Assembly: GCF_038397755.1 (NCBI RefSeq)
Contig: NZ_CP151637.1
Coordinates: 2,418,001 to 2,482,000 of the forward strand
From: Microbacterium sp. LWH7-1.2
Lineage (GTDB): Bacteria; Actinomycetota; Actinomycetes; Actinomycetales; Microbacteriaceae
Direction: 5' to 3'
DNA: 64,000 nt
In this document: positions 33,295-54,580 of the stretch, in pieces
Layout: every line of letters begins with the position of its first letter
Numbering within the stretch: position 1 is the stretch's first letter
Notes under the pieces: model-generated
Seen by the model: the letters and a program-made list of their open reading frames with translations, nothing else
Told to the model about the DNA's origin: nothing
Databases searched by the model: none
Program-made: the position numbers and the translations under genes

Positions 33295-33338
33295 TTGCCG
33301 CGACACAAGTCCCGCCCACAAAGTTCAAAGGCAGTTCA

Positions 33339-34787: not shown

Positions 34788-34821
34788 CGACCCCCTCACC
34801 CGCTACTCAGGAAGACCACCA

Positions 34822-38856: not shown

Positions 38857-38870
38857 GGATAACGATTGCC
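38857..38870 (+). promoter_or_regulatory. LacI-type operator A (GGATAACGATTGCC)
   Basis: GGATAACGATTGCC has the central CG of LacI operators and recurs with small changes at 42599, 42718, 51318, 51523 and 52631. Here it covers the expected start of transcription. A looser copy (GGCAATCGTTCCATCC, with two extra bases) lies at 38922-38937. Confidence 0.7.
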
Positions 38871-38968
38871 TTGATGCGATCCATCGTGTTTCTTCATCAG
38901 CCGGGTTGTCCAAACCCGGCCGGCAATCGTTCCATCCCGTGGCCCCCTCAACGAAGAAGGTGCTGATC

Positions 38969-41900
38969 ATGAGTCAATTGCAAGCAGCCTCTCGGAGCTC
39001 CGCGCTCCGAAGAGTGCTCACCCTCGGGACCGCGGCAGGCGTCGCGCTGAGTCTCCTGAACTCCGTGCCGGCCGGCGCCGCGAGCGATCCGGCGGGAGCG
39101 GGCACCTGTGAGGTGCAGTTCCACCCGACCGAGAGCGAGGCGGGCTTCACCCATCCCGGTATCGGGCTCACGGAGCCCATCCTCCAGAACGTCCGCACGC
39201 AGCTCGCGGCCGGAGCCGAGCCGTGGGCATCGGGCTTCGAGGCGCTCAAGCGCTCGAGCGCGGCGGCTGAGTCCGTAAGGCCTTCCAACGCCGCCGGCAA
39301 CGACCCGACCAAGCCGAGCCGGACCGTCTTCGACGCGGGCACCCGAGGGATGTTCGAAGCCGACGGCCTGAAGGCGTACACCCAGGCCGTCCTGCATGTG
39401 CTCACGGGGAAGGCTGTCCATCGGGCGAATGCCCTGGCCATCATCCGCAACTGGGGACAGATGGATCCGACCAGGTTCTCGTACTACGTCGATTCGCACA
39501 TCCACAACGGCATGCCGCTCTTCCGGATGGCCTCTGCCGCCGAGCTGCTGCGGTACACCACTTGCGGCGACCCCGCTCTCGTGCTGACCGACGCGGACGC
39601 AGATGCCTTCAGCACGAACCTGATCCGCCCCGCGATTGCGACGTTCATGTCTTCGCCGGACCGCTTCATGAACCAGCACAACTATCCGCTGCTGGGCTCC
39701 ATGGCCGGATCGATCTTCATGGACGACAAAGACCTCTACGGCGAGAAGGTCGAGTGGTTCACCGTCAACGAGTCGGCCAAGGACGAGGGTTTCAACGGCT
39801 CGGTCGCACGGCTCGCCCGATGGGTCAACCGGAACGACAAGACCGGTGAGGCGATCGACGACCCGCACGTGCAGCTGACCGAGATGGGACGTGACCAGGC
39901 GCATGGCGGCGGCAACCTCACGAACTTCGCAGCCCTTTCGCGGATGATGCTCGCGCAGGGCACCGGGGTCGATCCCGTGCACGGCACGGTCTCGACTGCG
40001 GAAGACGCGGTCGGGCCGTACGAGTTCCTGGACGATCGCATTCTGCACGCGGCTGACTATTTCTGGCAGTTCATGTCAGGCCGCGACCCCGAGTGGACCC
40101 CGATCGCCTACGCGATCTCACCGGACGGCACGATCCGTGACACCTACGACCACATCGCAGACGGCTACCGCGGACGCTACGCCACCGCGAGCTTCTGGGA
40201 GATCTACTACTACTACACGTATGTGCGCGGTCAGAACGTCGCGGAACTCGCTCCCTTCTTCGCCGAGGCGTATTCCCAGCGCCCGACCCCGGTGCAGATC
40301 GGCTGGGACGGCCGCGACGGCGGCGGCGACTCCTGGATGTTCGCACCCGCCGAGGCGATCGGCGAGGTAGCGACGACGCCGAACTCCGATCCGGACATCC
40401 TCGAGGTCGAGCACCGCTACACCCACCTCGCAGGCGACGTCACGCGGGAAGACGGCTTCGTTCGCATGGGAGAGGGCTCGAAGATCGCCTATCTCAGCGG
40501 CGCCACCGCCAAACCCGAGCAAGCCCTCCGCGTCCGCACCGAGGGGAACGCCGTGATCCACCTCGGCGGCGTGAGTCATGACGACACCGTCCGGCGCGAC
40601 ACGTCGATCGTGGTTCCGGGCACGGCGGGCCAGTGGCGTTACGTCACGGTCCGACGCGCGATGGACAACATCCTCTTCATCGAGACCGAGGGGGCGACCG
40701 TCGACATCGACCACATCCACGCCGACGCCGAGGCCGATCTCGACGGCCCCGTCTTCCCCGAAGACGCGAGCGATCGAGTCGTCGGCTGGAAGGGAGCGGC
40801 GATGAGCCTGGATCTGTCGGCGACCGCTACCGAGGCCACGAGCTACACCGTGAACGGGCTGCCCGACGGCGCAGCGTTCGACGCGCAGTCCGGTGCACTG
40901 ACATGGACGCCCGGTCGGACCGGTTCCTCGACGATGACCGTGGCCGCCGACGACGGCACGAGCGTCGCCGCCCGACAGGTCACGCTCGAGGTCGCGCAGA
41001 ATCGTGCGGCCGCGATCGAGATCGCTCGGAAAGGCTTCGACGAGAATGCCGGGTACGAGTCCGCGACGGCGGCGACGTACGCGGACGCGGACGCGCGTGC
41101 CCGCGAACTCCGTCGCGACGGATCGGACGCCGAGTACCTTCAGTCGCTGGCCGATGTCGTCGCAGCGGTGGGTGGGCTGCGCCTGACATCTCCGAAGACT
41201 GAACTGGACGGCAGCCTGGACTACCCCGGGCTCGTCGCCTCCTCGACGGCGGGGGATCGCACCGCGCTGCTGGTCGACGGTGACAACCAGACCGGAACCG
41301 TGTACCCGCAGGCGGTGAACATGGCTCATGTCCTCGACTTCGGGGCCGACTTCCGGGTATCGGCCAGTGGGTTCGGATTCCAGAGCAACATCTTCGCGGA
41401 CCGGCTCGCCAATTCGGCGGTGTTCGGCTCCAATGACGGTGCGAACTGGACACGACTGACTCCTGGCGCCACGGCGTTCACCCAGGACTTCAACACGCTG
41501 GACGTCGATCCGGCGTTGCAGGAAGACCAGTTCCGGTATCTGAAGGTCCAGATGCTCGAACAACTTCCCGACGTCCTCTACGGGATCATCCGCGGGGTGT
41601 TCGAGATGACCGAGTTCCGCATCTACGGCGAGCGACACGAGATCGGCAACCAGATCGATTCGGCCGTCGTCACCTCCCCCGACGCTGTTGCCAGGAAGGT
41701 GTCGGTGGGTGACACCGTGAACGTCACCGTGACGACGAAGCAGCCGGTCGAGGGCGTCACCGTCAACGTGATGGGCGTCGAGAAGACCGCCGCCTCCGAG
41801 GACGGCGTCACCTGGCTGGCCCCTGTCGTCCTCGACGGCGTCGCAACCGGTCCGGTCACCCTCGCCGTCGACTACACAGACGACGGCGTCGCCGGACCAA

Positions 41901-42388
41901 CCCTGCACGGCGTCACCGATGGAAAGAGCCTGTTCGTCGGCGGCGCCCGGGATCAGCGGATCGATGTCGCGAGCGTGGGCGCGGTGGTCGCCTCCGACAA
42001 GCAGTGGCCGGGCAACGCCCTGCCTGCCGACGAGGTGGGCTACCTGCTGTTCGACGGCGACGCCAGCACGGCGGGCGACCTCATCATGGGTGAGGGCGCG
42101 TATTACACGGTGGACTTCGGCTCCGAGAAGTCGCTGCGACTCCGAGAGGTGTTCTTCCTTCCGCGTGAAGGCAGCAACGCCGCTCGAGCGAACGGAGTCC
42201 TCGTGCAGGGATCGCATGACGGCCAGACCTGGTCCGACCTGACTGCGCCGCTCGCGGGCAGCGCATCAGGCGTATGGATGCAGCGTGCTGTCACCGACGA
42301 CGCGTCGTATCGCTACTTCCGGATCTGGAATCCGGTCCGCTGGCACGGCAATATGGCGGAGGTGCAGTTCTTCGGCGACTTCCAGTGA
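38969..42388 (+). CDS. Secreted multidomain protein with alginate-lyase-like catalytic domain
   Basis: 1,139 residues. A signal peptide (about 1-37, with LTLGTAAGVALSLLN, cut after PAGA) leads to an (alpha/alpha) toroid of the alginate-lyase Pfam type at about 50-400, marked by YYVDSHIHNGMPLFRMASA, NQHNYPLLGSMAGSIFMDD and HVQLTEMGRDQAHGGGNLTN. A putative Ig domain follows (about 610-685, YTVNGLPDGAAFDAQSGALT), a helical FIVAR-like spacer (about 690-745), a first discoidin-like module (750-880), an Ig-like strand region, and a second discoidin-like module (about 990-1139). The latter are carbohydrate binders. It probably starts extracellular breakdown of the glycan whose fragments enter through the next importer. 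Real substrate unknown; alginate is not implied. GAAGG precedes the ATG. Confidence 0.82.
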   Translation: MSQLQAASRSSALRRVLTLGTAAGVALSLLNSVPAGAASDPAGAGTCEVQFHPTESEAGFTHPGIGLTEPILQNVRTQLAAGAEPWASGFEALKRSSAAAESVRPSNAAGNDPTKPSRTVFDAGTRGMFEADGLKAYTQAVLHVLTGKAVHRANALAIIRNWGQMDPTRFSYYVDSHIHNGMPLFRMASAAELLRYTTCGDPALVLTDADADAFSTNLIRPAIATFMSSPDRFMNQHNYPLLGSMAGSIFMDDKDLYGEKVEWFTVNESAKDEGFNGSVARLARWVNRNDKTGEAIDDPHVQLTEMGRDQAHGGGNLTNFAALSRMMLAQGTGVDPVHGTVSTAEDAVGPYEFLDDRILHAADYFWQFMSGRDPEWTPIAYAISPDGTIRDTYDHIADGYRGRYATASFWEIYYYYTYVRGQNVAELAPFFAEAYSQRPTPVQIGWDGRDGGGDSWMFAPAEAIGEVATTPNSDPDILEVEHRYTHLAGDVTREDGFVRMGEGSKIAYLSGATAKPEQALRVRTEGNAVIHLGGVSHDDTVRRDTSIVVPGTAGQWRYVTVRRAMDNILFIETEGATVDIDHIHADAEADLDGPVFPEDASDRVVGWKGAAMSLDLSATATEATSYTVNGLPDGAAFDAQSGALTWTPGRTGSSTMTVAADDGTSVAARQVTLEVAQNRAAAIEIARKGFDENAGYESATAATYADADARARELRRDGSDAEYLQSLADVVAAVGGLRLTSPKTELDGSLDYPGLVASSTAGDRTALLVDGDNQTGTVYPQAVNMAHVLDFGADFRVSASGFGFQSNIFADRLANSAVFGSNDGANWTRLTPGATAFTQDFNTLDVDPALQEDQFRYLKVQMLEQLPDVLYGIIRGVFEMTEFRIYGERHEIGNQIDSAVVTSPDAVARKVSVGDTVNVTVTTKQPVEGVTVNVMGVEKTAASEDGVTWLAPVVLDGVATGPVTLAVDYTDDGVAGPTLHGVTDGKSLFVGGARDQRIDVASVGAVVASDKQWPGNALPADEVGYLLFDGDASTAGDLIMGEGAYYTVDFGSEKSLRLREVFFLPREGSNAARANGVLVQGSHDGQTWSDLTAPLAGSASGVWMQRAVTDDASYRYFRIWNPVRWHGNMAEVQFFGDFQ

Positions 42389-42457
42389 CCCGGCGCTGAG
42401 CCGGGCGGCCGATGAGCCGTCGAGAGGGGTTCCGTCGGCGCGCAGCCCCCTCCTCGC

Positions 42458-42600
42458 CTAACCGGCGACGAGGCTGACGTGGTCGAAGTCGGCGTGCCAT
42501 CCCTCGCCGTCCAGGTCTTCCGCGCGGATTCCGGCGAACGTTCCGGTGAATCGGGCGACCAGCGAATAGTCCGAGTCACGATCCCTTGCGCCAATGATGG
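42458..42600 (-). pseudogene. C-terminal fragment of a GH43-type glycosidase
   Basis: On the minus strand one frame reads SDYSLVARFTGTFAGIRAED and then GEGWHADFDHVSLVAG before a TAG. This resembles the C-terminal beta-sandwich end of GH43 xylosidase/arabinofuranosidase proteins (the typical ADFDHF ending). The upstream part is gone at about 42600, where the operator and promoter of the importer begin. There is no start codon and no catalytic part. Confidence 0.6.
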
Positions 42601-42612
42601 ATAGCGATTGCC
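42599..42612 (+). promoter_or_regulatory. LacI-type operator B1 (GGATAGCGATTGCC)
   Basis: GGATAGCGATTGCC differs from operator A by one base. It lies 119 bp upstream of operator B2 at the same promoter, a spacing that could allow looping. Confidence 0.68.
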
Positions 42613-42686
42613 GTTAATCGTGCACTTTTCGCGCGCTCTAGCCCAATGATCCATCCGCCTATCTCCCACTCGATATCAACGTCACA

Positions 42687-42716
42687 TTGACATGGGCAGC
42701 GGAGCGCAATCATACT
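42687..42716 (+). promoter_or_regulatory. Promoter of the second ABC importer operon
   Basis: A consensus TTGACA at 42687-42692, an 18-bp spacer and CATACT at 42711-42716. Operator B2 starts 2 bp after the -10, so a bound repressor would block initiation. Confidence 0.65.
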
Positions 42717-42717
42717 T

Positions 42718-42731
42718 GGATGACGTTATCC
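42718..42731 (+). promoter_or_regulatory. LacI-type operator B2 (GGATGACGTTATCC)
   Basis: GGATGACGTTATCC is the most symmetrical copy of the 14-bp element apart from the one at 51318: GGAT and ATCC arms around a central CG. It overlaps the predicted transcription start of the importer operon. Confidence 0.7.
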
Positions 42732-42806
42732 GTCCGATGCTCGGTGGGCCGATGACATCCCTGCAGCAATCCGCACATCGTGGGTGTGCGTCACGAAGGA
42801 GTGAAC

Positions 42807-44135
42807 ATGCGATCAGAACACCGGGGCGCCCTCGCCCTCACCGCGGGCATTGCCGCCGCCACCCTCCTCGCCGGGTGCAGCGGCACAAGCCCGACCCCAT
42901 CAGCAACGGAGGAGACGGGGCCCGTGACGATCGATGTCTGGGGATGGGACCCGATCACCCAGCAGATCGTCGACGCGTTCAACGACAGCCAGGACGACAT
43001 CACGGTCAACTATGTCCTGCAGCCGAGCAACACCGCCGCGCAGACCAACTTCCGCAACGTCATGGAGTCCCAGGACGACATCCCCTGCCTGCTTCCCGGC
43101 ATCACTCCGCTTGCGACCTCGTTGGTGAACGGCTGGGCGCAGGACATCACCGAGTACGTCGAGCCGGTCGCCGATCAGTTCAACGCCGGCGCCTTGGCCA
43201 GCGCCAAGATCGGCGACACGTTCTACGGCGTCCCGACCGGAGCGTCGGCGCAGTTCATGATGGTCAACACGAAGACGCTCGCGGATCACGGCGCAGATGT
43301 GCCGTCGACCTGGGAGGAGCTTGTCGAGACGGGAAAGGAGTTGGCTCCTGCGGGTATCAAGGTCATCAATCTCGCGGGTGAGGACCCGTCGACGCTGGTG
43401 AACCTGTCTCAGCAGGCCGGCGCCAAGTGGTTCCAGATCGACGGCGACAGCTGGACGGTCAACCTCCACGACAAGGCCACACTCAAGGCCGCAGGCATTC
43501 TCCAGGATGTTGTCGACAACGACCTCAACTCCACTCAGACGTATCAGGACCGACCGGCGCTGTACTCCTACTTCGACAGTGGACAGCTCGCAGCTCTGCC
43601 CACGCAATGGTGGTCGCTGACCGGTCTGCAGACCAACTTCGTCAATTCGCTCGGCCAGTGGGACGCCGTCCCCCTTCCGCAGTTCTCGGGATCGAAGGAG
43701 CACCTCGCAACAGGTTTCGCCAACCCGGCCATCGTGCCGGTCGGCTGCGAGCACCCCGAGGCCGCCGTCGAATACGCCACATTCGCGGCCGTGGACCCGG
43801 CGGGTATCGAGGCGAGCCGGAACCCGGACACCGGTGCGATCAGCGTCCCGACCGCGCTGAAGGACGTATCGGAGTACACCGAGGCCATCGTGCCCGACAG
43901 ACTCTTCGCGCAGTCCCCTGCGGAGGTCGGCGAGATCATCGCCGACGCGCAGGCTGACGTGATCGGCAAGTTCGAGCAGGGTCCGAACTACGACGCGTGG
44001 TTCCCCGAGCTGCAGGACCAGTGGGGCAAGTTCGTCGCCAAGCAGATCACCCTCGAGGAGGCCATCGCCAACGTCGAGGCCTACATCGCGACGGACCTCG
44101 AGAACAAGGGGATCGACTACTCGATCGCCAAGTAG
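42807..44135 (+). CDS. Sugar-binding lipoprotein of the second ABC importer
   Basis: 442-residue family-1 solute-binding protein. The signal peptide ends in the lipobox LLAGC. The mature part begins VTIDVWGWDPITQQIVDAFN and has the NTAAQTNFRNVMESQDDIPC and GVPTGASAQFMMVNTKTLAD segments of the oligosaccharide-binding group. GAAGGAG lies at good distance before the ATG. It starts a run of at least five plus-strand genes (binding protein, two permeases, GH36, hydroxyacid dehydrogenase), preceded by a promoter and two LacI-type operators. Ligand probably a galactose-containing oligosaccharide, inferred from the GH36 gene alone. Confidence 0.93.
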   Translation: MRSEHRGALALTAGIAAATLLAGCSGTSPTPSATEETGPVTIDVWGWDPITQQIVDAFNDSQDDITVNYVLQPSNTAAQTNFRNVMESQDDIPCLLPGITPLATSLVNGWAQDITEYVEPVADQFNAGALASAKIGDTFYGVPTGASAQFMMVNTKTLADHGADVPSTWEELVETGKELAPAGIKVINLAGEDPSTLVNLSQQAGAKWFQIDGDSWTVNLHDKATLKAAGILQDVVDNDLNSTQTYQDRPALYSYFDSGQLAALPTQWWSLTGLQTNFVNSLGQWDAVPLPQFSGSKEHLATGFANPAIVPVGCEHPEAAVEYATFAAVDPAGIEASRNPDTGAISVPTALKDVSEYTEAIVPDRLFAQSPAEVGEIIADAQADVIGKFEQGPNYDAWFPELQDQWGKFVAKQITLEEAIANVEAYIATDLENKGIDYSIAK

Positions 44136-44166
44136 ACCCCCGACACATCAAGGAGAGGAGACGCGG

Positions 44167-45147
44167 ATGTCTTCCGTAGCAGTGGTTCGTGATCGCGGGA
44201 CTGATCCCTCGGCTCCGTCCGAACCGACCGGGCGCGGAGGATCCGCGTCTCCTCGCCGATCGTGGCGCCACCTCCAGCGGCTGAAAGGGGCGTCGTTCAC
44301 CTGGCCTTTCTTCGCGGGTTTCGCGGTGTTCACCGTGCTTCCGGTCGTCCTGGCATTGGGCCAGAGCCTGTTTTCGGAGAAGTCCTCGGGCTTGGGGTTC
44401 GGTGGCGCCGAGGTCAGCTTCTCCGGTGTCGACAACTTCGTCCGCGGTCTCACCGACCAGATCTTCTGGGAGTCGATGCTCCGGGTCGGGATCTATGCGG
44501 CGATCGTCGTGCCCGTGACGCAGGTCGTGAGCCTCGTTCTGGCCCTGCTGGTCGACGCCGTCACGCGTCGCGTGGCCGGTCGCTTCCGCTTGTCGCTGCT
44601 GATCCCTTACATGATTCCGGGCATCGTGGCGACGATGATCTGGATCTACCTCTACAGCCCCGTGGTCGGCCCGCTCCAGCCGGTCTTCGATGCCTTGGGC
44701 CTCGACATCAATTTCTTCTCGGGGTCGATGATCTGGCTGTCGATCGGCAACCTTGCCCTCTGGGGGACCATCGGCTTCAACATGCTGATCCTGTATGGCG
44801 CGCTCCAGGCGGTGCCGCGCGAGCTCTTCGATGCAGCGCGCGTTGACGGAGCATCCGATTTCCGCATCGCGATGTCGATCAAGGTGCCCTACGTGCGAGG
44901 TTCGCTCGTCTTGACCGGACTCCTGTCCATCATCGGCACCCTGCAGATCTTCGCCGAGCCGACAGTGTTCCGCGCGGTGTCTCCTGAGACGATCACCAAG
45001 GACTTCACTCCAGCGATGGTGATCTTCAACCAGGCGTTCCAGGTCGGCAACCTCAACTACGCCGCCGCGCTGTCGATCATCCTCGCTGCCGTCGTCGGCA
45101 TCGCCTCTGCGGTCATCTACCGCCTTACGAGCAAGGTCGACCAATGA
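44167..45147 (+). CDS. Carbohydrate ABC importer permease, MalF type
   Basis: 326 residues. A cytosolic N-terminal tail (about 1-40) is followed by six transmembrane segments from WPFFAGFAVFTVLPVVLALG. The EAA loop LFDAARVDGASDFRIAMSIK contacts the ATPase. AAGGAGAGGAG precedes the ATG. The stop overlaps the start of the next permease (ATGA), so the two are produced together. It works with the binding protein upstream and an ATPase that is not encoded here. Confidence 0.93.
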   Translation: MSSVAVVRDRGTDPSAPSEPTGRGGSASPRRSWRHLQRLKGASFTWPFFAGFAVFTVLPVVLALGQSLFSEKSSGLGFGGAEVSFSGVDNFVRGLTDQIFWESMLRVGIYAAIVVPVTQVVSLVLALLVDAVTRRVAGRFRLSLLIPYMIPGIVATMIWIYLYSPVVGPLQPVFDALGLDINFFSGSMIWLSIGNLALWGTIGFNMLILYGALQAVPRELFDAARVDGASDFRIAMSIKVPYVRGSLVLTGLLSIIGTLQIFAEPTVFRAVSPETITKDFTPAMVIFNQAFQVGNLNYAAALSIILAAVVGIASAVIYRLTSKVDQ

Positions 45148-46115
45148 GCCTTTCAGACATCAGCCTCGCGACCGTCGAGACGACCGAAGAGGTGAGGAGA
45201 GCGGAGCGAGCGGCCGTGCAGGCTGCCCGCCGCAACCGGCGACGCGGGCGTGATGGAGACGACGCGGGCACGGCCGTCGCGCGCGGCGGCTCGAAGTGGT
45301 TGGTGCTCGCAGGCTTGATCCTGTTCACCATCTACTCCGTCGGCCCGGCGTGGTGGCTGATCGTGTCGGCGACGAAGTCGAAGGAACAGCTCTACACGAC
45401 GAACGGCCTCTGGTTCGCAGACTTCCACCTCTTCGAGAACTTGTACACGCTCTTCACGTATCAGGATGGCGTCTTCGGGCGCTGGCTGTGGAACTCCACG
45501 CTCTACGCCGTTGCCGGCGCGACCGGCCAGACGATCATCGCTCTGGCGGCCGGCTACGGCTTGGCGATGTATCAGTACCGCGGCAAGGGCACGTCGATGG
45601 CGTTCATCATCGGCTCCTTCCTGATCCCGGGCGCGCTGCTGACGATTCCGTCCTACTTGCTGTTCGTGCAGCTCGGGATCTACGACACCATCTGGGCGAT
45701 GATCATCCCTGCGTTCTTCGGTTCCTTCTCTGTCTACCTCGCGAAGGTCTACGCCGAAGGCGCGGTGCCCGCCGAGCTGTTGGAGGCCGCCCGCATCGAC
45801 GGCGCCGGCGAATACCGCACCTTCTTCAGCATCGGGCTGAGACTGCTCACGACAGCTGGAGCGACGATCTTCCTGCTGCACTTCGTCGGAATATGGAACG
45901 CCTTCTTCGGGCCGCTCGTCTTCCTCCGGTCACGCGACCTCTGGCCGGTCATGCTCGGGCTGTACTCGTGGCTCGGTCGCGGCATGGATTCCACCGTCGA
46001 CCTCACCAGCCTGGTGATCACCGGGTCGCTGGTCGCCACCATCCCCATGGTGATCCTCATGGTCGCCATGCAGCGGTACTGGCGCGCCGGCGTCACCATG
46101 GGGAGTCTCAAGTGA
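45144..46115 (+). CDS. Carbohydrate ABC importer permease, MalG type
   Basis: 323 residues. The first 50 are basic and cytosolic (VRRAERAAVQAARRNRRRGR), then six transmembrane segments begin WLVLAGLILFTIYSVGPAWW. The EAA loop is LLEAARIDGAGEYRTFFSIG, which ends in GLRLL rather than the usual proline-containing end. Its ATG overlaps the stop of the MalF-type gene, and its own stop overlaps the GTG of the GH36 gene (GTGA). The three are therefore translationally linked, tying import directly to the galactosidase. Confidence 0.92.
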   Translation: MSLSDISLATVETTEEVRRAERAAVQAARRNRRRGRDGDDAGTAVARGGSKWLVLAGLILFTIYSVGPAWWLIVSATKSKEQLYTTNGLWFADFHLFENLYTLFTYQDGVFGRWLWNSTLYAVAGATGQTIIALAAGYGLAMYQYRGKGTSMAFIIGSFLIPGALLTIPSYLLFVQLGIYDTIWAMIIPAFFGSFSVYLAKVYAEGAVPAELLEAARIDGAGEYRTFFSIGLRLLTTAGATIFLLHFVGIWNAFFGPLVFLRSRDLWPVMLGLYSWLGRGMDSTVDLTSLVITGSLVATIPMVILMVAMQRYWRAGVTMGSLK

Positions 46116-48337
46116 CGGCGTCGGCCGGACTCCCGCCCAACACCTTTCCATCCCAATCCACCTTCTGGACAGAGGAGTCCGCCATCGTCGACGAAATCGT
46201 CATGTCTGCCCGCTTCGGGTCGATCGATGCAGCAGCCGCCGAGGCAGAGGCGGCGGCAGAGGCAACGCGGATGCCCGTCGCCGACGTCCGCTGGTCGGCC
46301 CAGCGGCCGATCTCGCTGGCGTCGCTCGACGGTTCGACGATGCTCGGCCGCGACGACGTCCCGCTCGTCGAAGTATTCACGTCGCGTGAGCAGCGCGCCC
46401 GATCCAGCCAAGCGTACGTCCGGTCCGCGGTCGGAGCCCGCCTGCGCGTGCGCAAGGTCGTCGAGGACGCCGACGCGGGCGCGGACCGCATGGTGATCGA
46501 GCAGCACGACGATGCCTCGGGCCTCACCGTCACGACGACGTTGACCCGTCCCGCCGGGCTGAGCGCGGTGCGCATCGAGACGGTTGTGCACAACACCTCG
46601 AACGAGCCCGTCACCGTCACGGCGATCACGACGTCGTTCGGGATCAGGCAGACGGAACAGCTCGACGGCATCATCCTCGGGGTGGCCGCGAGCGAATGGC
46701 TCGCCGAGAACCGTTGGCGGGAGGTGCCGCTCACGGATGTCATGCCCACGCTCGATCTCGCCCTCCACGCGCAGGACGGACGTGGGCACTTCGGCATCAC
46801 GAGCCGCGGTGGCTGGTCCAGCGGCGAACACCTGCCCACCGGTTTTCTCGTCGACGACGACTCGGGGGAGGCCGCCGCGTGGCAGATCGAGACGAGTGCG
46901 GGCTGGCACATGGACTTCGCGGCCACCCGCAACGGCGCGACGCTCTCGCTCCTCGGACCGGCAGACCTCGAGCATCACTTCGCCCACGAACTCGACCCCG
47001 GCGCCTCGTTCGAGGCCGTGGCCGTCGCCGTCGCAACCTCGACGAAAGGGCGAGACGGCGCGATCGCACAGCTGACGGAGTATCGCCGCTGGCTGCGCGG
47101 CGAAGCACGTCAAGCGTCAGATGCGCCGATCATCTACAACGACTTCATGAACACCCTCATGGGCCAGCCGACGACGGAGGCGCTCCTGCCGCTCATCCGT
47201 GAAGCAGCCGCAGCCGGCGCGGAGCTGTTCTGCATCGACGCCGGATGGTTCGCCGACCCGACGATCGGCGACTGGTGGGACACCGTCGGTGAGTGGACCG
47301 AGGCGCCCGCCCGATTCGTCGGCGGCCTGCGTGCGGTCTTCGACGAGATCCATCGGCTCGGCATGAGATCGGGAATCTGGCTCGAGCCCGAGGTCGTCGG
47401 GGTCAAGAGTCCCATCGCCGACTCGCTCCCCGACGAGGCCTTCTTCCAGCGGTTCGGGCAGCGAGTGCGCGAGCACGACCGCTACCATCTCGATCTGCGT
47501 CATCCCGCGGTACGGAGCCGACTCGACCTGGTCGTGGATCGCCTGGTCGCCGAGTTCGGCGTCTCCTATTTCAAGCTCGACTACAACATCAACCCCGGCG
47601 CGGGCACCGAATGGCGGGCTGCCGCACCCGGAGACGGCCTGCTCGGCCACACCAGGGCGCTCCGCGACTGGCTGGTGGGGATCGGTTCGCGGCATCCCGA
47701 CGTGCTCGTCGAGAACTGCAGTTCCGGAGCGATGCGGGCCGACTACTCGCTCCTCTCGGTCACGCACCTCCAGTCGACGAGCGACCAGCAGGACTTCCTC
47801 CTGTACCCGCCGATCGCGGCGTCGGCCCCGGCGCACATCGTGCCCGAGCAGTGCGGCAACTGGGCGTACCCCGCGGCCGGCATGACCCCCGAGGAGATCG
47901 CGTTCACCATGGTCACCGGCCTCAGCGGCCGCTTGTACCTCTCGGGGTTCCTCGACACGCTCGACGAGGCGCAGCGCGCGCTCGTGCACGAGGCCGTCAC
48001 CTTGCATCGACGTGACCGGCACCGACTGGGGTCGGCCATCCCGTTCTGGCCGCTCGGTCTGCCCGAGTGGGACGACGAGGTCGTCTGCCTGGGCATGCGC
48101 CACGACGATGGCCTGACGCTGTTCATCTGGGATCGCGGGGAGGAGCGGGCCGATCTCCTCCTTCCCGACGTGCAGGGGATGGCGTCCGTCGCCTATCCGA
48201 GCGCCCCCGCATCACCCTGGTCACTCGAGCCACGCGCCGATGGTCTCGCCGTACGCACATCGCCCGGGCCGACCGCGCGAGTAATCACGGTGGTGGGCCC
48301 CCGGCTCGGAGCCCGCCCGACCGGACGCGGAGCGTGA
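46112..48337 (+). CDS. GH36 alpha-galactosidase
   Basis: 741 residues, cytosolic, cleaves alpha-linked galactose (or N-acetylgalactosamine in some subfamilies). An N-terminal beta-sandwich (about 20-320) precedes a TIM barrel. The nucleophile is Asp490 in YFKLDYN and the acid/base is Asp558 in STSDQQDFL; CSSGAMRAD is the substrate-binding loop and IWLEPEVVG the first barrel motif. The frame is open far upstream through the permease gene, but the GTG at 46112, overlapping the permease stop and preceded by GGGAG, is the likely start. A second, deleted copy of this kind of gene lies at 49.4-50.2 kb. Confidence 0.93.
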   Translation: MTASAGLPPNTFPSQSTFWTEESAIVDEIVMSARFGSIDAAAAEAEAAAEATRMPVADVRWSAQRPISLASLDGSTMLGRDDVPLVEVFTSREQRARSSQAYVRSAVGARLRVRKVVEDADAGADRMVIEQHDDASGLTVTTTLTRPAGLSAVRIETVVHNTSNEPVTVTAITTSFGIRQTEQLDGIILGVAASEWLAENRWREVPLTDVMPTLDLALHAQDGRGHFGITSRGGWSSGEHLPTGFLVDDDSGEAAAWQIETSAGWHMDFAATRNGATLSLLGPADLEHHFAHELDPGASFEAVAVAVATSTKGRDGAIAQLTEYRRWLRGEARQASDAPIIYNDFMNTLMGQPTTEALLPLIREAAAAGAELFCIDAGWFADPTIGDWWDTVGEWTEAPARFVGGLRAVFDEIHRLGMRSGIWLEPEVVGVKSPIADSLPDEAFFQRFGQRVREHDRYHLDLRHPAVRSRLDLVVDRLVAEFGVSYFKLDYNINPGAGTEWRAAAPGDGLLGHTRALRDWLVGIGSRHPDVLVENCSSGAMRADYSLLSVTHLQSTSDQQDFLLYPPIAASAPAHIVPEQCGNWAYPAAGMTPEEIAFTMVTGLSGRLYLSGFLDTLDEAQRALVHEAVTLHRRDRHRLGSAIPFWPLGLPEWDDEVVCLGMRHDDGLTLFIWDRGEERADLLLPDVQGMASVAYPSAPASPWSLEPRADGLAVRTSPGPTARVITVVGPRLGARPTGRGA

Positions 48338-48382
48338 CCACCGTGACCGACCGGGTCCCGTTCAACACGCACCCACGAACGG

Positions 48383-48408
48383 CCGCCGGCGGCACTGCCC
48401 GCCGGCGG
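48383..48408 (+). other. Stable hairpin just upstream of a ribosome binding site
   Basis: A 10-bp GC-only stem (CCGCCGGCGG with an identical complement) and the loop CACTGC, ending 1-2 bases before the GAGGAGG of the next gene. No T-tract follows. It may protect or attenuate the mRNA between the GH36 and dehydrogenase genes; a terminator role is less likely. Confidence 0.45.
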
Positions 48409-48422
48409 GAGGAGGAAGCTCG

Positions 48423-49418
48423 ATGCCCACGATGAAGGCCGCGTTCGCCATGACGCCCGAGCTGTTGCCGTTCGTCTTCGGCGACGATGAGGTTCGCCGG
48501 CTCCAGCAACTCGTCGACCTGGACCCGCGACGCGTTCTGAATGCGGACGCGGGCCTCCAGGACATCGAGGAGGAAGAGCTCGCGGCCATCAACCTCCTGA
48601 TCACGGGGTGGGGTGCGCCCCCGATCGGACCGAAGCAGCTCGCCATGATGCCCGCCCTCCGCGGCGTGGTGCACTGGGGTGGGGGCGGTGGATTCCTGGA
48701 CGAAGTCGCGACGGCCCGAGGCATCCCCGTGTCGACTGCGCGGGCCGCGAATGCCCTCCCCGTGGCGGAGTTCACGATCGCCATGATCACTCTGGCCGCC
48801 AAGGACGCGTTCTGGGCCTCACGCCTGTACCGCCGCGAACAGCGACAGATCGATCGCGAAGCCGAGCTCCCCCACACCGGCCTGTACGGCACCACGATCG
48901 GCCTCGTCGGGGCATCGACGATCGGGAGACTGGTCATCGAGCAGCTTCAGGGTCGAGACGTCGAGCTGCTCGTCTACGACCCGTACCTGACCGACGCGGA
49001 TGCCGCACACCTCGGTGTCGAAACGGTCCGCGATCTCGAAGATCTCGCGCGCCGCAGCACCGTGCTCTCGCTCCACGCGCCGGCGATGCCGCAGACCGAT
49101 GGGATGATCTCGCGTGCGGTGCTCGCCGCGATGCCCGACGGCGCGACCCTCGTGAACACGGCGCGGGGCTCGCTCGTCGACCAGGACGCCCTGGTGGAAG
49201 AGCTCGCCGAGGGCCGGCTTGGGGCGATCCTCGACGTCACCGATCCCGAGGTGCTGCCGGAGGGACATCCGCTGTACACGCTTGCGAACGTGTTCCTCAC
49301 CCCTCACCTCGCGGGATCCACCGGGACGGAGCTCCGCCGGCTCGGCCGCGCGGCGCTCGCCGAGGTCGAGCGATTCGTCGCCGGCGCGCCGTTCGAGTAT
49401 CCGATCACCAGCCCCTGA
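48423..49418 (+). CDS. D-isomer-specific 2-hydroxyacid dehydrogenase
   Basis: 331 residues. The NAD-binding domain has GLVGASTIGRL, and the catalytic Arg, acid and His are in NTARGSLVDQDALVEELA, DVTDPEVLPEGHPLY and LTPHLAGST. The flanking catalytic domain starts AAFAMTPELLPFVFGDDEVR. This group reduces or oxidises 2-hydroxyacids such as glycerate, hydroxypyruvate or phosphoglycerate, and also occurs with sugar loci as an oxidoreductase of uncertain substrate. GAGGAGG precedes the ATG. It follows the GH36 gene by 85 bp and belongs to the same plus-strand unit. Confidence 0.9.
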   Translation: MPTMKAAFAMTPELLPFVFGDDEVRRLQQLVDLDPRRVLNADAGLQDIEEEELAAINLLITGWGAPPIGPKQLAMMPALRGVVHWGGGGGFLDEVATARGIPVSTARAANALPVAEFTIAMITLAAKDAFWASRLYRREQRQIDREAELPHTGLYGTTIGLVGASTIGRLVIEQLQGRDVELLVYDPYLTDADAAHLGVETVRDLEDLARRSTVLSLHAPAMPQTDGMISRAVLAAMPDGATLVNTARGSLVDQDALVEELAEGRLGAILDVTDPEVLPEGHPLYTLANVFLTPHLAGSTGTELRRLGRAALAEVERFVAGAPFEYPITSP

Positions 49419-49435
49419 CCCGGCGGAGTACTGCA

Positions 49436-50227
49436 GTGACCTCGGCTACCGCTTCGCACGTCGACCAGCGGTCCGCCATCGAGTGGACCCACCCTCGACT
49501 GCACCTCCGTTTCGACCACGACGCCGACCACCCGGTCTCCCTCGTGCACTGGTCGAGCCTTCCCGACGCACCGTCGATCGTCGTGCCGTCGGTGATCGTC
49601 GACCTCAGCGTCGCCGGGGAGGAGCGCGAACGCCACAACCAGAGCCTCCTCCTCTGGGGGGCCGGGCGGCGCCTGCGCTACACCGGCCACGATGCGGACG
49701 GCGACGAGCTGCGCATTGACCAGCACGATCCCCTGAGCGGTCTCGAGGTGACCAGCGTCTTCAGGGCGGCGGGGCCGGGAGTCCAGCTCCGGCACGTCGT
49801 GCGCAACGGCGCGCAGGGCGAAACCGTGCTCCTGGCGGTGAGTTCCGCGCTCGTGTCGGTTCCGGCTCTATCTGTCCGGCTTCCTCGAGGGGCTCAGCGA
49901 GGAGCAGTTCGCCCTCGCGTGAGGCCGTCGCCGTCCACAAGGAATCGCGCCACCGCATCGCCGGGACGCATCCGGCACGGCCGCTCGACCTCCCGGGCTG
50001 GGACGACGACGTGATCGCGCTGCAACTCGATGCCGGTTCCGAGTCGCTGCGGGGCGCTGTGGTCGAGACGTACCGCAACCCAGATCGCGCTGCCGACGCT
50101 CCGCGGACGGAGCCTCGAGCAGGTCTATCCGGTCACCTTGCCGGAGTGGACCATCCGAACGGTGCACGGCGCGCCGACCGTCGAGGCTTACGCAGGGCCC
50201 TCCGCGCGGATCTTCGCGGTGCGGTGA
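49436..50227 (+). pseudogene. GH36 alpha-galactosidase paralogue with the catalytic barrel deleted
   Basis: An intact beginning (GTG at 49436 with GGAG upstream) encodes a GH36-like N-terminal beta-sandwich up to about 49860 (LHLRFDHDADHPVSLVHWSS through VLLAVSSALVSV). It then jumps to the end of the barrel: RLYLSGFLEGLSEEQFALA matches the C-terminal GRLYLSGFLDTLDEAQRALV of the GH36 gene upstream. The whole middle, with both catalytic aspartates, is missing. A frameshift at about 49920 (GCGTGAGGCC) and another near 50090 break the rest; the natural end TIRTVHGAPTVEAYAGPSAR is in a third frame. It is non-functional. Confidence 0.9.
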
Positions 50228-50248
50228 CCGAGCCGCCGCCAGTCACCC

Positions 50249-51229
50249 TCAGACTCGCTCGACACCGCCCCAGGCGGTGCTGAGCCGCTCGTACTCTTCC
50301 GCGGTCACCGGCAGGACGACCCCGTGGCAGGGGTCGCTCGGCAGCCGGAAGTCCTCGGAAGGAGCCCACTGACCGCCCGCCAGGTCGGTCGACTCGAACG
50401 GGACATAACGGCGTTCGGGAGTGAACTCATCGATCCAGAGGAACCACTTCTCGTCGGTGTTCGACTTGTACACCAACGGCCCCTCCCCTCGGCTGATCGC
50501 ACCCAGACCGATGCCTGCGGCCAACGGCCTCCAATGCATCGCGGTCAGCGACTCGGACGTCTCCGAGAACACCGACTTGCCCTGAGGGGCCACGCCGTCC
50601 CGGGCCCGTTCATCCTTGAGGAAGCGGTAGTAGAGGCCATCGTGCAGGATCACCGTGGCGTCGATCGTCTGCCACCCGCGGTCGACCCACACGCGAGGCT
50701 CGGAGAACTCCCGGAAGTCGCGCGTGAACGCGTACATGATCCGGTTGTAGCTCGCACCCGCGTGCTCGGCGTCGTCGTAGAGCGTGGAAGACCAGTGCAC
50801 CAGGAAGGCGTCATGCCCGGGATCCCACACCGACTCCGGGGCCCAGGCGTTCCCGGCCTCGGGCGGTGCCACCTCGACCAGGCGACCTTCGTCCCAGTTC
50901 ACGAGATCCGTAGACTCCCAGACGACGATCGAGCGGCTGCCGTGGCGCACGTGCCGGTCCCAGTCGGTGCTCGCATGCACGCGCAGATCCGTCGCGACAA
51001 GGTAGAAGCGATCCTCGCCGGGGGCGCGGACGATGTGCGGGTCGCGTACCCCGCGCTCGCCCAGCTTCGAGGAGAGCACCGGTCTGCCGCCGTTGAGGTC
51101 GTCGAAGTGCAGCGGGTCGTTCCTGTCGCTCAGCGCGAAGTGGATCTGCTCACCGTCGTCCGACTCGCGTTTGAAGTGGGCGTAGAGGTAACCGACGTAC
51201 TCGGGATGCTGTCTACCGTTGGAGGTCAT
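50249..51229 (-). CDS. GH43-family glycosidase, probably arabinosidase/xylosidase-like
   Basis: 326 residues forming a five-bladed beta-propeller. Characteristic blocks are ERGVRDPHIVRAPGEDRFYL (with the general base Asp in the RDPHI turn), NAWAPESVWDPGHDAFLVHW, TIDATVILHDGLYYRFLKDE and GEGPLVYKSN (the acid Glu region). There is no signal peptide, so it acts in the cytosol on imported fragments. It runs opposite to the importer operon and shares a 330-bp control region with the LacI gene. A -10 TATAGT (51348-51343, minus strand) and operator C just downstream fit repression by that LacI protein. Confidence 0.85.
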   Translation of the reverse strand: MTSNGRQHPEYVGYLYAHFKRESDDGEQIHFALSDRNDPLHFDDLNGGRPVLSSKLGERGVRDPHIVRAPGEDRFYLVATDLRVHASTDWDRHVRHGSRSIVVWESTDLVNWDEGRLVEVAPPEAGNAWAPESVWDPGHDAFLVHWSSTLYDDAEHAGASYNRIMYAFTRDFREFSEPRVWVDRGWQTIDATVILHDGLYYRFLKDERARDGVAPQGKSVFSETSESLTAMHWRPLAAGIGLGAISRGEGPLVYKSNTDEKWFLWIDEFTPERRYVPFESTDLAGGQWAPSEDFRLPSDPCHGVVLPVTAEEYERLSTAWGGVERV

Positions 51230-51317
51230 GAAGGTGCACCATCTCTCGGGTCGTTCGATGGACCGGCGTGCCGCCGGGGCCGAGCGTCAGCGCGCCGCGA
51301 TTATCGCTGACGCCGGT

Positions 51318-51331
51318 GGATATCGCTATCC
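51318..51331. promoter_or_regulatory. LacI-type operator C (GGATATCGCTATCC)
   Basis: GGATATCGCTATCC is a near-perfect palindrome with central CG, the most symmetrical copy of the shared element. It lies 12 bp downstream of the TATAGT -10 of the minus-strand GH43 gene. Apart from it and operator D, I see nothing else in the 330-bp gap 51230-51559. Confidence 0.72.
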
Positions 51332-51522
51332 TTACTTCGCCCACTATACCGACTCACGCTACGGGCAGTTCTCCGATGTCCGGACGGATGACAGTGGGGT
51401 TTCCGTTCCGAGCCGGGTGGTCGTGAGCCCGCCCGGGCGGCGTCGCGTGCAGTGGCACGCGAATGAACCCGGCCGCTTTCATCTCCGCGCCCCAACCGAT
51501 CGGCCCTGTCGGGTGACGGCTA

Positions 51523-51536
51523 GGATATCGTTTGCA
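51523..51536 (+). promoter_or_regulatory. LacI-type operator D (GGATATCGTTTGCA)
   Basis: GGATATCGTTTGCA lies 24 bp before the LacI gene start, overlapping a possible -10 (TAGGAT). It suggests autoregulation of the repressor. Confidence 0.65.
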
Positions 51537-51559
51537 CCGCAAGGGCCTGGAAGGAGCCG

Positions 51560-52603
51560 ATGTTGCCCCCCGAGAAGCCCCCGACACTGACCGACGTCGC
51601 TCGCCTCGCCGGCGTGTCCGTGCCCACCGCGTCTCGCGCGTTGAACGGCGGGGTGCGTGGCACCCAGAGCGGCACCCCCGAACTGCGACGCCGCGTGCAT
51701 GATGCTGCCCGCGCCCTGGGGTACTCCGTGAACCCCGCGGCGCAGGCGACGAAGGGCGGGCGCGCGCGCACCGTCGCACTGCTCGTGAGCGACATCGAGG
51801 ACTTCGGCTCCGCGACGATGATCTCGGGCGTCATGCACGCCGCCGAGAAGCGCGGCGTCTCCGTCGCCGTGCGCACCACGCTCGACGACCCACTCCGTGA
51901 GCTGGACCTGCTCACCGCCCTCAGGGGGGAGCGACACCGCGCGGTCGTCATCGCCACCGCGAGAACGACCGACAAGCACCGCGAGCGAGCACTGGAAGCG
52001 CAGCTGCGCACCCTCGCGGAGCACGGAACGCGCGTCGTGATCGTGGGTGACAATTCTCTCGGCTTCCCGTCGGTCACCGTCGACAATCACGAGGCAGCGC
52101 GTCTCCTGGCGGATTCGCTGGTCCGATCGGGCAAGCGGCGCTTCGCCGTGCTGTCGGGGCCGACGATCGAGATCACGTCGAACGACCGAGTCCAGGGGTT
52201 CCTCGAGGGGCTCTCGGCTCACGGCATCGCCGTGCCCGCGTCGGACATCGTGTCCCGCGCGTTCTCCCGCGACGGCGGGTATGCCGCCGTCGATCAGCTT
52301 GCCGAAAGGATCGGGGAGCTCGACGTCGTCGCCGCCATGAGCGACGCGATGGCGGTGGGTGCGATCGCCCATCTCCGTGAGCTGGGCATGGAGTCGCCTC
52401 GCGACGTGGAGGTCACGGGCTTCGACCACGTTCCCATGCTGGGCGACGTCCTTCCCCGGTTCAGCACCGTGGAGGTGCCCCTCGAAGCGTTCGGCGAGGC
52501 GGCGCTGTCGTTGGCGTTGGACGACGACGATCCGGAGCCCCAAGCCCGCGTCGCCCTCCGCGCGACGCCGATCGTGCACGGCAAACCGGTCGCTCGTTCG
52601 TAG
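51560..52603 (+). CDS. LacI-family repressor, likely master regulator of the second polysaccharide locus
   Basis: 347 residues. The HTH is LTDVARLAGVSVPTASRALN and the hinge helix NPAAQATKGGR; the sensor domain runs from VALLVSDIEDFGSATMISGV to VTGFDHVPMLGDVLPRFSTV. AAGGAG precedes the ATG. Operators of one type lie at its own promoter and upstream of four neighbouring genes, so it is the most likely regulator of the alginate-lyase-domain gene, importer operon and both GH43 genes. The inducer is probably a galactose-containing oligosaccharide, by context. Confidence 0.9.
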   Translation: MLPPEKPPTLTDVARLAGVSVPTASRALNGGVRGTQSGTPELRRRVHDAARALGYSVNPAAQATKGGRARTVALLVSDIEDFGSATMISGVMHAAEKRGVSVAVRTTLDDPLRELDLLTALRGERHRAVVIATARTTDKHRERALEAQLRTLAEHGTRVVIVGDNSLGFPSVTVDNHEAARLLADSLVRSGKRRFAVLSGPTIEITSNDRVQGFLEGLSAHGIAVPASDIVSRAFSRDGGYAAVDQLAERIGELDVVAAMSDAMAVGAIAHLRELGMESPRDVEVTGFDHVPMLGDVLPRFSTVEVPLEAFGEAALSLALDDDDPEPQARVALRATPIVHGKPVARS

Positions 52604-52630
52604 CCGCCTCCGGACCCGTTCGCGCGGATT

Positions 52631-52644
52631 GGCAAACGCTATCC
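52631..52644 (+). promoter_or_regulatory. LacI-type operator E (GGCAAACGCTATCC)
   Basis: GGCAAACGCTATCC, the inverse-oriented copy (GGATAGCGTTTGCC on the other strand), lies 45 bp before the GH43-like gene at 52689 and next to a possible -10 (CTATCCTTAT). Confidence 0.7.
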
Positions 52645-52688: not shown

Positions 52689-53609
52689 GTGGAGCCGATG
52701 AGCAGACTCGACGTGCACGGTGGCCGCATCCGGCCCGGCGCGATCGTCTACGACGACCGCGACGAGGTCGCTCAGCTGCACGGCATCGGCATCCAGCGCG
52801 TCGGAGAGCTCTGGTACGCCTGGGGCGAGGACAAGACGGCCGGGGGAACCTTCACCGCTGTCGCCTGCTATTCCTCTCCCGACCTCGTCTCTTGGCGCTA
52901 CGAGGGCGACGCGCTCGCCGCGGCGGACGGAGATCTGGGGGCCGACCGCGTCATCGAGCGGCCGAAGGTGCTCCAGCGCCCCGACGGCGCCTGGGTGATG
53001 TTTCTCCACGCCGACACCGCAGACTACTCGTATGCGCGCGTCGGATACGCCGTCGCGGAGCATCCGGCGGGGCCCTACCGCTACCTGCACAGCGAACGGC
53101 CGATGGGGAACATCAGCCGCGATATCGGCGTGTATCAAGAGGGCGACGTCGGCTACCTCTTGTCCGAAGACCGCGACAACGGGCTGCAGATCTACCGCCT
53201 GCGTCCCGACTACCTCGGCGTCGAAGATGTCGTGGCGACGCTCCGACAGCAGCAGCGCCCTGAGGTCGGATACGAATCGCCCACGCTTGTTCGCAAGGAT
53301 GGCCTCTACTATCTGTTCGGCTCGGACCTCACCGGATGGAGCACGAACGACAACATGTACACCACCGCACCTTCTCTCGAGGGGCCGTGGGACCGGTGGC
53401 GTCCCTTCGCTCCCGCCGGCAGCGCCACGTTCGACTCTCAAGTCAGCGTCGTCGTCGCTGTCGGCACCGGCCACCTGTACGTCGGCGACCGGTGGCAGCG
53501 GGACTCGCTCGCGACATCTCCCCCTGTCTGGCTTCCGATCACCATCGCCGACGGCGCAGCCACCATGCAGTGGCACGACACATGGAGCCCGCAGGCCGCC
53601 TTCGCCTGA
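52689..53609 (+). CDS. GH43-like beta-propeller glycosidase (resembles the exo-1,3-galactanase group)
   Basis: 306 residues. The start DVHGGRIRPGAIVYDD and the ELWYAWGEDKTAGG segment fit the HGG(I)...YYWYGE pattern of GH43 subfamily 24-like exo-beta-1,3-galactanases. Later blocks are RPKVLQRPDGAWVMFLHAD, SRDIGVYQEGDVGYLLSEDR, VGYESPTLVRKDGLYYLFGS and a closing blade. That subfamily works on type II arabinogalactan, which would fit GH36, GH43 and fucosidase genes nearby, but this is inference. It has no signal peptide and no binding module. The GTG at 52689 follows AAGGGAG; an ATG at 52698 is an alternative. Confidence 0.78.
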   Translation: MEPMSRLDVHGGRIRPGAIVYDDRDEVAQLHGIGIQRVGELWYAWGEDKTAGGTFTAVACYSSPDLVSWRYEGDALAAADGDLGADRVIERPKVLQRPDGAWVMFLHADTADYSYARVGYAVAEHPAGPYRYLHSERPMGNISRDIGVYQEGDVGYLLSEDRDNGLQIYRLRPDYLGVEDVVATLRQQQRPEVGYESPTLVRKDGLYYLFGSDLTGWSTNDNMYTTAPSLEGPWDRWRPFAPAGSATFDSQVSVVVAVGTGHLYVGDRWQRDSLATSPPVWLPITIADGAATMQWHDTWSPQAAFA

Positions 53610-53726
53610 CCTCCCCGCTCCCGGTCGCTTCGCCGCGCCACACCCCCTGAGCGGGCCCCACGTGCGCTCGCACGCGCTTGAAGTGTCTTCAACCCGAGAA
53701 CGCAGCGATGATGTGCTGCCTGAGCC

Positions 53727-54580
53727 CGTGGAGCACCTCGACAACTCCGCCGCGCTCGACGACGTCCGCGCCGTCATCGAGCAGGGTGCGTACGATGCGG
53801 ATTGGAATTCTCTGTCCGCGTACACACCGCCGCGCTGGTACCGGGACGCGAAGGTTCGGCATCTTCATCCACGGGGGGGGTGTACTCGGTTCCCGCGTTC
53901 GGGAACGAGTGGTACTCGCGCAACATGTACCTGGCGGGCACCTCCGAGTTCGAACACCATGTGCAGGTCTACGGCGAACACCGCGACTTCGGGTACAAGG
54001 ACTTCATCCCCGAGTTCCGGATGGAGCAGTTCGAACCCGCGGAGTGGGCAGCGCTCATGCGCGCCGCCGGCGCCCAGTTCGTCGTTCCGTTGGCGGAGCA
54101 TCACGACGGATTCGCAATGTACGACACGGAGCGCTCACGGTGGAGCGCGGTGCAGATGGGACCGCGTCGGGACGTGTTCGGCGACCTCCTCGAGGCAGTG
54201 GATGCCGCGTGGATGGTGCGCGGAGCATCCTGGCACCGCGCCGAGCACTGGTTCTTCATGAACGGTGGGGCGCGTTCGCCCCCGGAAGCCCGGTCTACGA
54301 CATCGAACGAGGCACGATGTGAACCCAGCCCGACGTGTGGCAAAACGACACCGCCGTGTCGAAGTCCGCGTGGTGCTGGATCGAGGGTCACCACTACAAG
54401 ACTGCGCAAGACCTCATCGCGGAGCTCGCGGACGTGGTCTCCAAGAACGGCAACCTCCTGCTGAACATCGGCCCCAAGCCCGACGGCACCATTCCGGAAG
54501 CCGAGCAGCGGATCCTGCGCGAGATCGGCGCCTGGCTGTCTGTCAACGGCGAAGCCATCTACGGCATCCGCCCATGGTGA
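53727..54580 (+). pseudogene. GH29 alpha-L-fucosidase, disrupted
   Basis: Recognisable pieces of a family 29 fucosidase lie in three frames: DADWNSLSAYTPPRWYRDAK, then FGNEWYSRNMYLAGTSEFEH and [20 protein letters not shown], and finally SWCWIEGHHYKT-like text with NLLLNIGPKPDGTIPEAEQR up to the stop at 54578-54580. Lesions: an extra base near 53851, an 8-G run at 53873-53880 with another shift, an internal loss at about 54205 that removes the part with the nucleophile Asp, and a TGA near 54320. It is unrelated in detail to the intact GH29 at 33.3 kb. Confidence 0.88.

Follow-up and report, generated by a model that had tools for sequence, protein, structure and literature searches.

Local regulons in which a LacI-family regulator acts on its own gene and on nearby genes through operators with a central CG are a common kind (Ravcheev et al. 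2014, PMC4052901). In the main text of that account the operators are even palindromes located mostly 30-140 bases upstream, the genes serve a single carbohydrate pathway, and autoregulation is usual for local LacI regulons (72%). For arabinogalactan, a Bifidobacterium side-chain cluster encodes a GH36 enzyme, a LacI-type regulator, a solute-binding protein and two permeases (PMC10688797), and galactan use in Bifidobacterium breve is governed by the LacI-type regulator GalR, renamed GosR (PMC4746261, PMC7889515). The genome of Microbacterium sp. LWH7-1.2 was examined over 64,000 nucleotides (contig NZ_CP151637.1, positions 2,418,001 to 2,482,000; this whole stretch is called the window). The window probably contains a local, self-controlling regulon for type II arabinogalactan, in which the LacI protein encoded at 51560-52603 is predicted to control a secreted enzyme, an importer of the ATP-binding cassette (ABC) type and intracellular glycosidases. 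The kind is well known, and this regulon is a conserved new example of it.

The system of the window resembles the regulons of PMC4052901 in its even palindrome with central CG, the upstream distances of its sites, its apparent autoregulation and its single putative carbohydrate pathway, but has a threonine in the hinge of the regulator in place of the usual leucine. With the AAfase cluster of Bifidobacterium pseudocatenulatum (PMC10688797) it shares a LacI-type regulator, a binding protein, two permeases, a GH36 gene and a secreted enzyme that comes first. The secreted enzyme there belongs to GH39, whereas the window has an alginate-lyase-fold protein, two GH43 proteins (GH43a and GH43b) and a dehydrogenase, and GH39 is absent from the Pfam matches of the cluster genes. 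No description of an operator was found in the available account of the AAfase cluster in PMC10688797. The likeness to GosR is one of description only. The operator of the window does not appear in the main text of PMC4052901, where "galactan" and "micrococc" occur 0 times, the supplements being outside the scope. The sequence-only reading from which this analysis started had called the regulon previously unlisted; literature searches (LacI with arabinogalactan, LacI regulons with galactan, Microbacterium), together with the available text of PMC4052901 and PMC4746261, yielded no report recognised as this regulon, RegPrecise not being covered, and within that range the claim stands.

In the proposed mechanism, without inducer a LacI dimer would sit on CG-centred 14-bp palindromes and block transcription from the promoters of the secreted enzyme, of the importer, GH36 and dehydrogenase genes (a putative operon), of GH43a, of lacI itself and of GH43b. 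A breakdown product of type II arabinogalactan that enters by the importer would release LacI. The secreted alginate-lyase-fold protein would then begin the attack on the polymer outside the cell, the ABC importer would carry oligosaccharides inward, and intracellular GH36, GH43a and GH43b, the last of exo-beta-1,3-galactanase type, would remove arabinose and galactose.

CG-centred sites and their conservation

Six 14-mers with CG at positions 7-8 in every case (6/6) form an even palindrome with the consensus GGATANCGNTATCC; GGCAA half-sites would also be accepted. The sequence-only reading had listed them at 38857, 42599, 42718, 51318, 51523 and 52631, in non-coding DNA upstream of the secreted gene, the importer, both GH43 genes and lacI. 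The letters agree exactly at all six positions, and all are intergenic and upstream of the genes named when translation starts at ATG 38969, ATG 42807, 51229 (minus strand), ATG 51560 and GTG 52689, the starts chosen here among mechanical open reading frames some of which begin earlier. Five of the sites lie 37-112 bases upstream and one lies 208 bases upstream.

A palindrome-averaged matrix built from the six sites scores them at 19.0-22.3 bits, and no other position in the 64-kb window reaches 10 bits. When each site was omitted from the matrix in turn, the omitted site scored 15.8-21.0 bits and the best non-site position 10.2. Among 100 first-order Markov sequences of 64 kb generated from the dinucleotide chain of the window, none reached 19 bits (largest 17.6; mean maximum 13.2). 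An origin of the sites by chance, as intergenic palindromes of GC-rich DNA, would be in keeping with the 17.6 bits attained by random sequence, with the two weakest leave-one-out scores (15.8 and 16.9), which singly fall within the chance range, with a loose IUPAC pattern that at up to 2 mismatches gave 50 matches in the window versus 34.2 +/- 6.5 expected, and with a wider pattern, GGMWADCGHTWKCC, that gave 8 matches in the genome versus 4 for its reversed control. Such an origin is nevertheless extremely improbable, given six sites of at least 19 bits in one window versus none in 100 random sequences, and sites conserved in position in 19/19 orthologous loci and found in other genera also. 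Jointly, and with their conservation, the six sites exceed chance. The loose pattern with 2 mismatches, being little above chance, was dropped as a search tool.

The whole genome, a single contig of 4,446,169 bases, has the exact pattern GGATANCGNTWNCC in 6 places, 4 of them in the arabinogalactan cluster; with 1 mismatch there are 28 matches, versus 19 for the reversed control. Random scatter of the 14-mer across the genome had been set beforehand as a test of the proposal, and the exact pattern is not scattered in this way. Three genome matches were put aside: one at 3599745 that falls within an open frame; one at 266591, upstream of a family-5 solute-binding protein gene, which was seen as a single match and left uncounted; and an asymmetrical one at 3782173, 127 bases upstream of a secreted GH43 gene, near which there is a different LacI-like palindrome, GTTAGCGCTAAC. 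This palindrome, near the start of the secreted GH43 gene, which a GH127 gene follows (locus L184, 8162-8345), is perhaps another LacI-type operator.

Orthologs of the LacI protein (E <=1e-60) were found in 17 of the 295 genomes of the genus that were searched, its own included, and two found later brought the number to 19. In all 19, one site precedes the aligned start of lacI by 37-51 bases (11.9-20.6 bits) and another follows its aligned end at a distance of 30-98 bases (12.0-21.1 bits); these sites too have the central CG, though they were selected with a matrix that favours CG. The 14-mer of operator 3, GGATGACGTTATCC, recurs unchanged before the solute-binding protein ortholog in locus L039, and GH36, GH43b and dehydrogenase genes are present in 15 of the 16 ortholog loci of which 20 kb were read. 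Homologs of the secreted gene are present in 28 of 366 genomes. A site of at least 19.5 bits precedes the gene in exactly the 19 that have a LacI ortholog and in none of the other 9 (Fisher p 1.4e-7, kinship among genomes not corrected for), and in these 9 genomes the best LacI protein is at most 38% identical to that of the window. The earlier attribution of the sites to the LacI protein at 51560-52603 is thus favoured by comparison of sequences, both at lacI (19/19) and at the secreted gene (19/19 with the ortholog, 0/9 without).

A scan of named genomes yielded 31 LacI loci, 24 with proteins 61-85% identical to that of the window and 7 with distant Paenibacillus or Streptomyces proteins (25-27%). 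Orthologs are encoded also by M. yannicii, M. barkeri, M. trichothecenolyticum, Agromyces, Leifsonia, Terrabacter, Glycomyces, Brachybacterium and Arthrobacter. Sites were sought in 17 of the 31 loci: in each of the 10 close ones, sites are found near the secreted gene, GH36 or lacI, frequently in the form GGATAACGCTATCC or GGATAACGATATCC, and the 7 distant ones have weaker scattered matches or none. The cluster of Arthrobacter sp. M4 (L154) has a LacI protein with 82% identity, above most of the Microbacterium orthologs, a possible case of transfer between families. In 7 of the 19 ortholog loci (L014, L015, L020-L022, L024 and L098) the operator downstream of lacI is preceded, at 23-24 bases, by a further LacI-type site (GGAAAGCGCTTTAC and similar), which may represent a second input. 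The 9 genomes with the secreted gene and without the LacI ortholog have a different LacI gene, whose product is 31-34% identical, within about 4 kb of the secreted gene (L072-L076, L080, L083, L085 and L089); the regulator beside the secreted gene seems to have been exchanged there. No palindrome common to all 9 was found, CGACGGCGCCGTCA being present in 4 of them.

The regulator, its promoters and its closest paralog

All 19 aligned LacI sequences keep V21, P22 and R26 in the recognition helix, and the helix-turn-helix of the window protein has an insertion of about four residues relative to LacI and PurR. Alignment with LacI and PurR places Thr64 at the hinge position, which is Thr, Ile or Met among the 19; the leucine that inserts at the central CG, a usual but not a defining feature, is present in 82% of the LacI family according to the available text of PMC2978694. 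Autoregulation is suggested by position, namely by the site before lacI in 19/19 loci.

The sequence-only reading had also claimed overlap of the site with the transcription start at three promoters. A consensus scan of the window gave a single promoter-like sequence versus 1.1 expected by chance, which ends two bases before operator 3, and the claim was borne out only in part; the placement of sites at promoters receives support from the orthologs, of which, by eye, 10 of 19 have GATACT immediately upstream of the lacI site and 17 of 19 have TAC[TG]NT 7-9 bases past the post-lacI site. The apparent position of the operators at core promoters suggests repression by blocking of the polymerase. 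Two pairs of sites, at 42599 and 42718 (119 apart) and at 51318 and 51523 (205 apart), would allow looping.

A search of the genome gave 39 LacI-like matches (E <=1e-5), two of which are perhaps pieces of one gene, and the sites could in principle belong to another of these regulators. The likeliest is the closest paralog (genome positions 3522170-3523168), which is 40% identical to the LacI protein of the window and has GGAAATCGCTTGCC, with half of the motif in common, 74 bases before its aligned start. Of the 8 genome matches to GGMWADCGHTWKCC, 4 are in the cluster and the other 4, at 3.51-3.55 Mb, are in the region of the paralog and include the hybrid site GGATAACGCTTTCC. In 6 of the 9 genomes with the paralog and no LacI ortholog, hybrid sites with a GGATA half occur elsewhere than at the secreted gene, so that this half-site is not unique to the LacI protein of the window. 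The paralog is present, however, in all 28 genomes of the genus that were tested, including those 9, yet the site before the secreted gene tracks the LacI ortholog. A scan of the 250 bases upstream of the paralog in 28 loci, 17 of which have some half-site of this type, revealed no GGATA half, and loci of Leifsonia, Glycomyces, Terrabacter and Arthrobacter have sites in genomes with no match to the paralog at 1e-80. Assignment of the sites to the paralog is therefore quite improbable. A heterodimer of the LacI protein and the paralog on mixed half-sites was considered as well, and is weakened by the Leifsonia locus, which has the half-site GGCAAACG in such a genome.

Side by side with the paralog, the region at genome positions 3508001-3604000 (L025-L029) contains sites of the GGAAAGCG type and hybrid sites, and many genomes of the genus have such sites again. 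Genes that follow hybrid or paralog-type sites there encode a solute-binding protein, a GFO/IDH/MocA oxidoreductase and glycerate kinase.

Genes of the cluster and candidate substrate

The features of the cluster are collected in Table 1. GH43b aligns over nearly its full length with GH43_24 exo-beta-1,3-galactanases, and its residues E90, E196 and Q251 align with Glu102, Glu208 and Gln263 of Pc1,3Gal43A, described as essential in the available text of PMC7939473. Unlike these galactanases, GH43b has no signal peptide visible by eye, and it is probably intracellular. Inspection of the other N-termini by eye suggests export for the protein encoded at 38969-42388 (Sec-type) and for the binding protein, and for neither GH36 nor GH43a. 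The nearest curated relatives of GH36 and GH43a are BAD_1528 and BAD_1527, and both proteins fall outside the curated limits for membership: GH36 scores 561.7 bits versus an NCBIfam cut-off of 1100 for the equivalog NF053652, and GH43a scores 202.1 bits versus 500 for NF052546.

Table 1. Predicted operators, promoter-like sequence and genes of the cluster, in window positions
Feature	Position	Strand	Description
Operator 1	38857..38870	+	GGATAACGATTGCC; 112 bases upstream of the secreted alginate-lyase-fold gene
Secreted multidomain protein, 1139 aa	38969..42388	+	He_PIG and F5/8 type C (NedA-like) by Pfam; predicted alginate-lyase-type toroid
Operator 2	42599..42612	+	GGATAGCGATTGCC; 208 bases upstream of the importer genes
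Promoter-like TTGACA-18-CATACT	42687..42716	+	Consensus scan; ends before operator 3 (42718)
Operator 3	42718..42731	+	GGATGACGTTATCC; 89 bases upstream of the importer genes
Substrate-binding lipoprotein, carbohydrate ABC importer	42807..44135	+	Weak match to NCBIfam TIGR03850, 22.8 bits; LAGC lipobox by eye; no match in Pfam scan
ABC permease 1	44167..45147	+	Pfam BPD_transp_1
ABC permease 2	45144..46115	+	Pfam BPD_transp_1
GH36 glycosidase	46112..48337	+	Nearest curated model beta-L-arabinopyranosidase BAD_1528
D-2-hydroxyacid dehydrogenase family protein	48423..49418	+	Pfam 2-Hacid_dh_C
GH43a	50249..51229	-	Nearest curated model alpha-arabinofuranosidase BAD_1527; Pfam GH43 31.2 bits, narrowly below the cut-off of 32.2
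Operator 4	51318..51331	-	GGATATCGCTATCC; 88 bases upstream of GH43a
Operator 5	51523..51536	+	GGATATCGTTTGCA; 37 bases upstream of lacI
LacI-family regulator, 347 aa	51560..52603	+	Pfam LacI PF00356 39.0 bits and PF13377 (Peripla_BP) 75.8 bits, both past cut-off
Operator 6	52631..52644	+	GGCAAACGCTATCC; 28 bases past the lacI stop, 58 bases upstream of GH43b
GH43b, exo-beta-1,3-galactanase type	52689..53609	+	Solved exo-beta-1,3-galactanase 5flw, E 3.2e-89

The secreted protein has no match to a catalytic Pfam family even at E 1, and none to PF05426 (Alginate_lyase); an NCBIfam search with this protein alone gave no catalytic family. Of the 28 aligned family members of the genus, 26 match PF05426 at E <=0.1 (best 3.8e-7). 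A PDB sequence search with the profile of the protein gave a chance match only, the catalytic part being without a match. A model predicted from 28 sequences (mean predicted local distance difference test score 72.0; predicted template-modelling score 0.71) was compared with PDB folds, and alginate lyases took ranks 1, 3 and 5 (Dp0100, a Microbulbifer enzyme and a PL17 enzyme), with template-modelling scores of about 0.38; the remaining top ten are mostly GH43/CBM6 entries that match the beta-sandwich part of the model. The earlier designation of an alginate-lyase domain is thus probably correct as to fold, on the strength of the homologs and the model, and did not hold as a Pfam assignment of the window protein itself. 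A likeness of the protein to the alginate-lyase toroid fold (Dp0100, PL17 enzymes and the PL5 enzyme A1-III) is suggested by the first and third fold matches of its model and by the PF05426 matches of its homologs; the protein differs from that fold in the low template-modelling score, in an identity of 10-14% and in a catalytic part unmatched by PDB sequences.

Arabinogalactan as the substrate, which the sequence-only reading had suggested, is backed by the predicted identities of the enzymes, GH43b being of galactanase type and the closest relatives of GH36 and GH43a being a pair of Bifidobacterium enzymes whose names refer to arabinose linkages. The regulon could be real and serve another substrate, such as an alpha-galactoside, a pectic side chain or a uronate-containing glycan: GH36 matches solved alpha-galactosidases also and may be one, the secreted protein has a predicted alginate-lyase fold, and importer types vary among the orthologs. 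In view of the arabinose-linkage relatives of GH36 and GH43a, a different substrate is possible but unlikely.

Several further observations weigh against the arabinogalactan regulon as proposed, together with the curated cut-offs that GH36 and GH43a do not reach and the GGATA halves in genomes without the LacI ortholog. The ortholog genomes are related, so that the counts are not independent. Low scores were obtained for three of the 19 sites upstream of lacI (11.9, 13.8 and 11.9 bits) and for one of those downstream (12.0). The matched permease is only 28-32% identical in 14 of the 16 ortholog loci, and the imported sugar may differ among them. The putative enzymatic action of the secreted protein on the polymer is a prediction, as are binding, repression, the inducer, operon structure and the substrate.

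Some broken or separate genes were noted nearby. A second GH36-like gene fragment is located at 49433-50283; over 92 residues its N-terminal part has 32% identity with the intact GH36, its downstream part resembles by eye a C-terminal piece in other frames, and a Pfam scan gave no match. A broken alpha-L-fucosidase gene is located at 53678-54464 (GH29, PF01120, 4.1e-37 for one open piece), and a GH29 gene is found between GH43a and lacI in the related ortholog locus L039. A separate sugar cluster at 28891-36123 has its own LacI gene (32194-33225, minus strand), a GH29 gene, an enolase-superfamily dehydratase gene and an ABC importer, and contains zero matrix matches of at least 10 bits.

Possible reach beyond the cluster and significance

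The hybrid site GGATAACGCTTTCC, with one half like that of the LacI operator of the window and one half like that of the paralog, is located at genome position 3511579, 69 bases upstream of the gene for a glycerate kinase (PF02595, 351.6 bits), and has a matrix score of 21.7. This site or GGATAGCGTTTTCC precedes the glycerate kinase gene in 15 of 28 genomes, all of them among the 19 with the LacI ortholog and none among the 9 without. The glycerate kinase gene directly adjoins the paralog gene in 8 of the 9 genomes without the LacI ortholog and in 3 of the 19 with it, and the paralog may therefore be the true regulator of the kinase. The glycerate kinase site may be a target shared by both regulators, in which case the regulon may not be confined to 15 kb. 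A bolder proposal joins three parts: an undescribed actinobacterial route for type II arabinogalactan, a secreted starter enzyme that would be a new family on the alginate-lyase toroid, and control in trans of the glycerate kinase gene, a megabase away, through a hybrid operator shared by two paralogous repressors. As a whole it is speculative and rather unlikely; counting against its reach in trans are confounding by clade, the kinase gene being beside the paralog in 8 of 9 genomes, and the GGATA-half sites in 6 of 9.

For the probable use of arabinogalactan by Microbacterium and related actinomycetes, the proposed local regulon provides a defined operator and a named regulator together with a list of genes. 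A conserved secreted protein is tied by predicted regulation to arabinogalactan enzymes, and its substrate can thereby be guessed.

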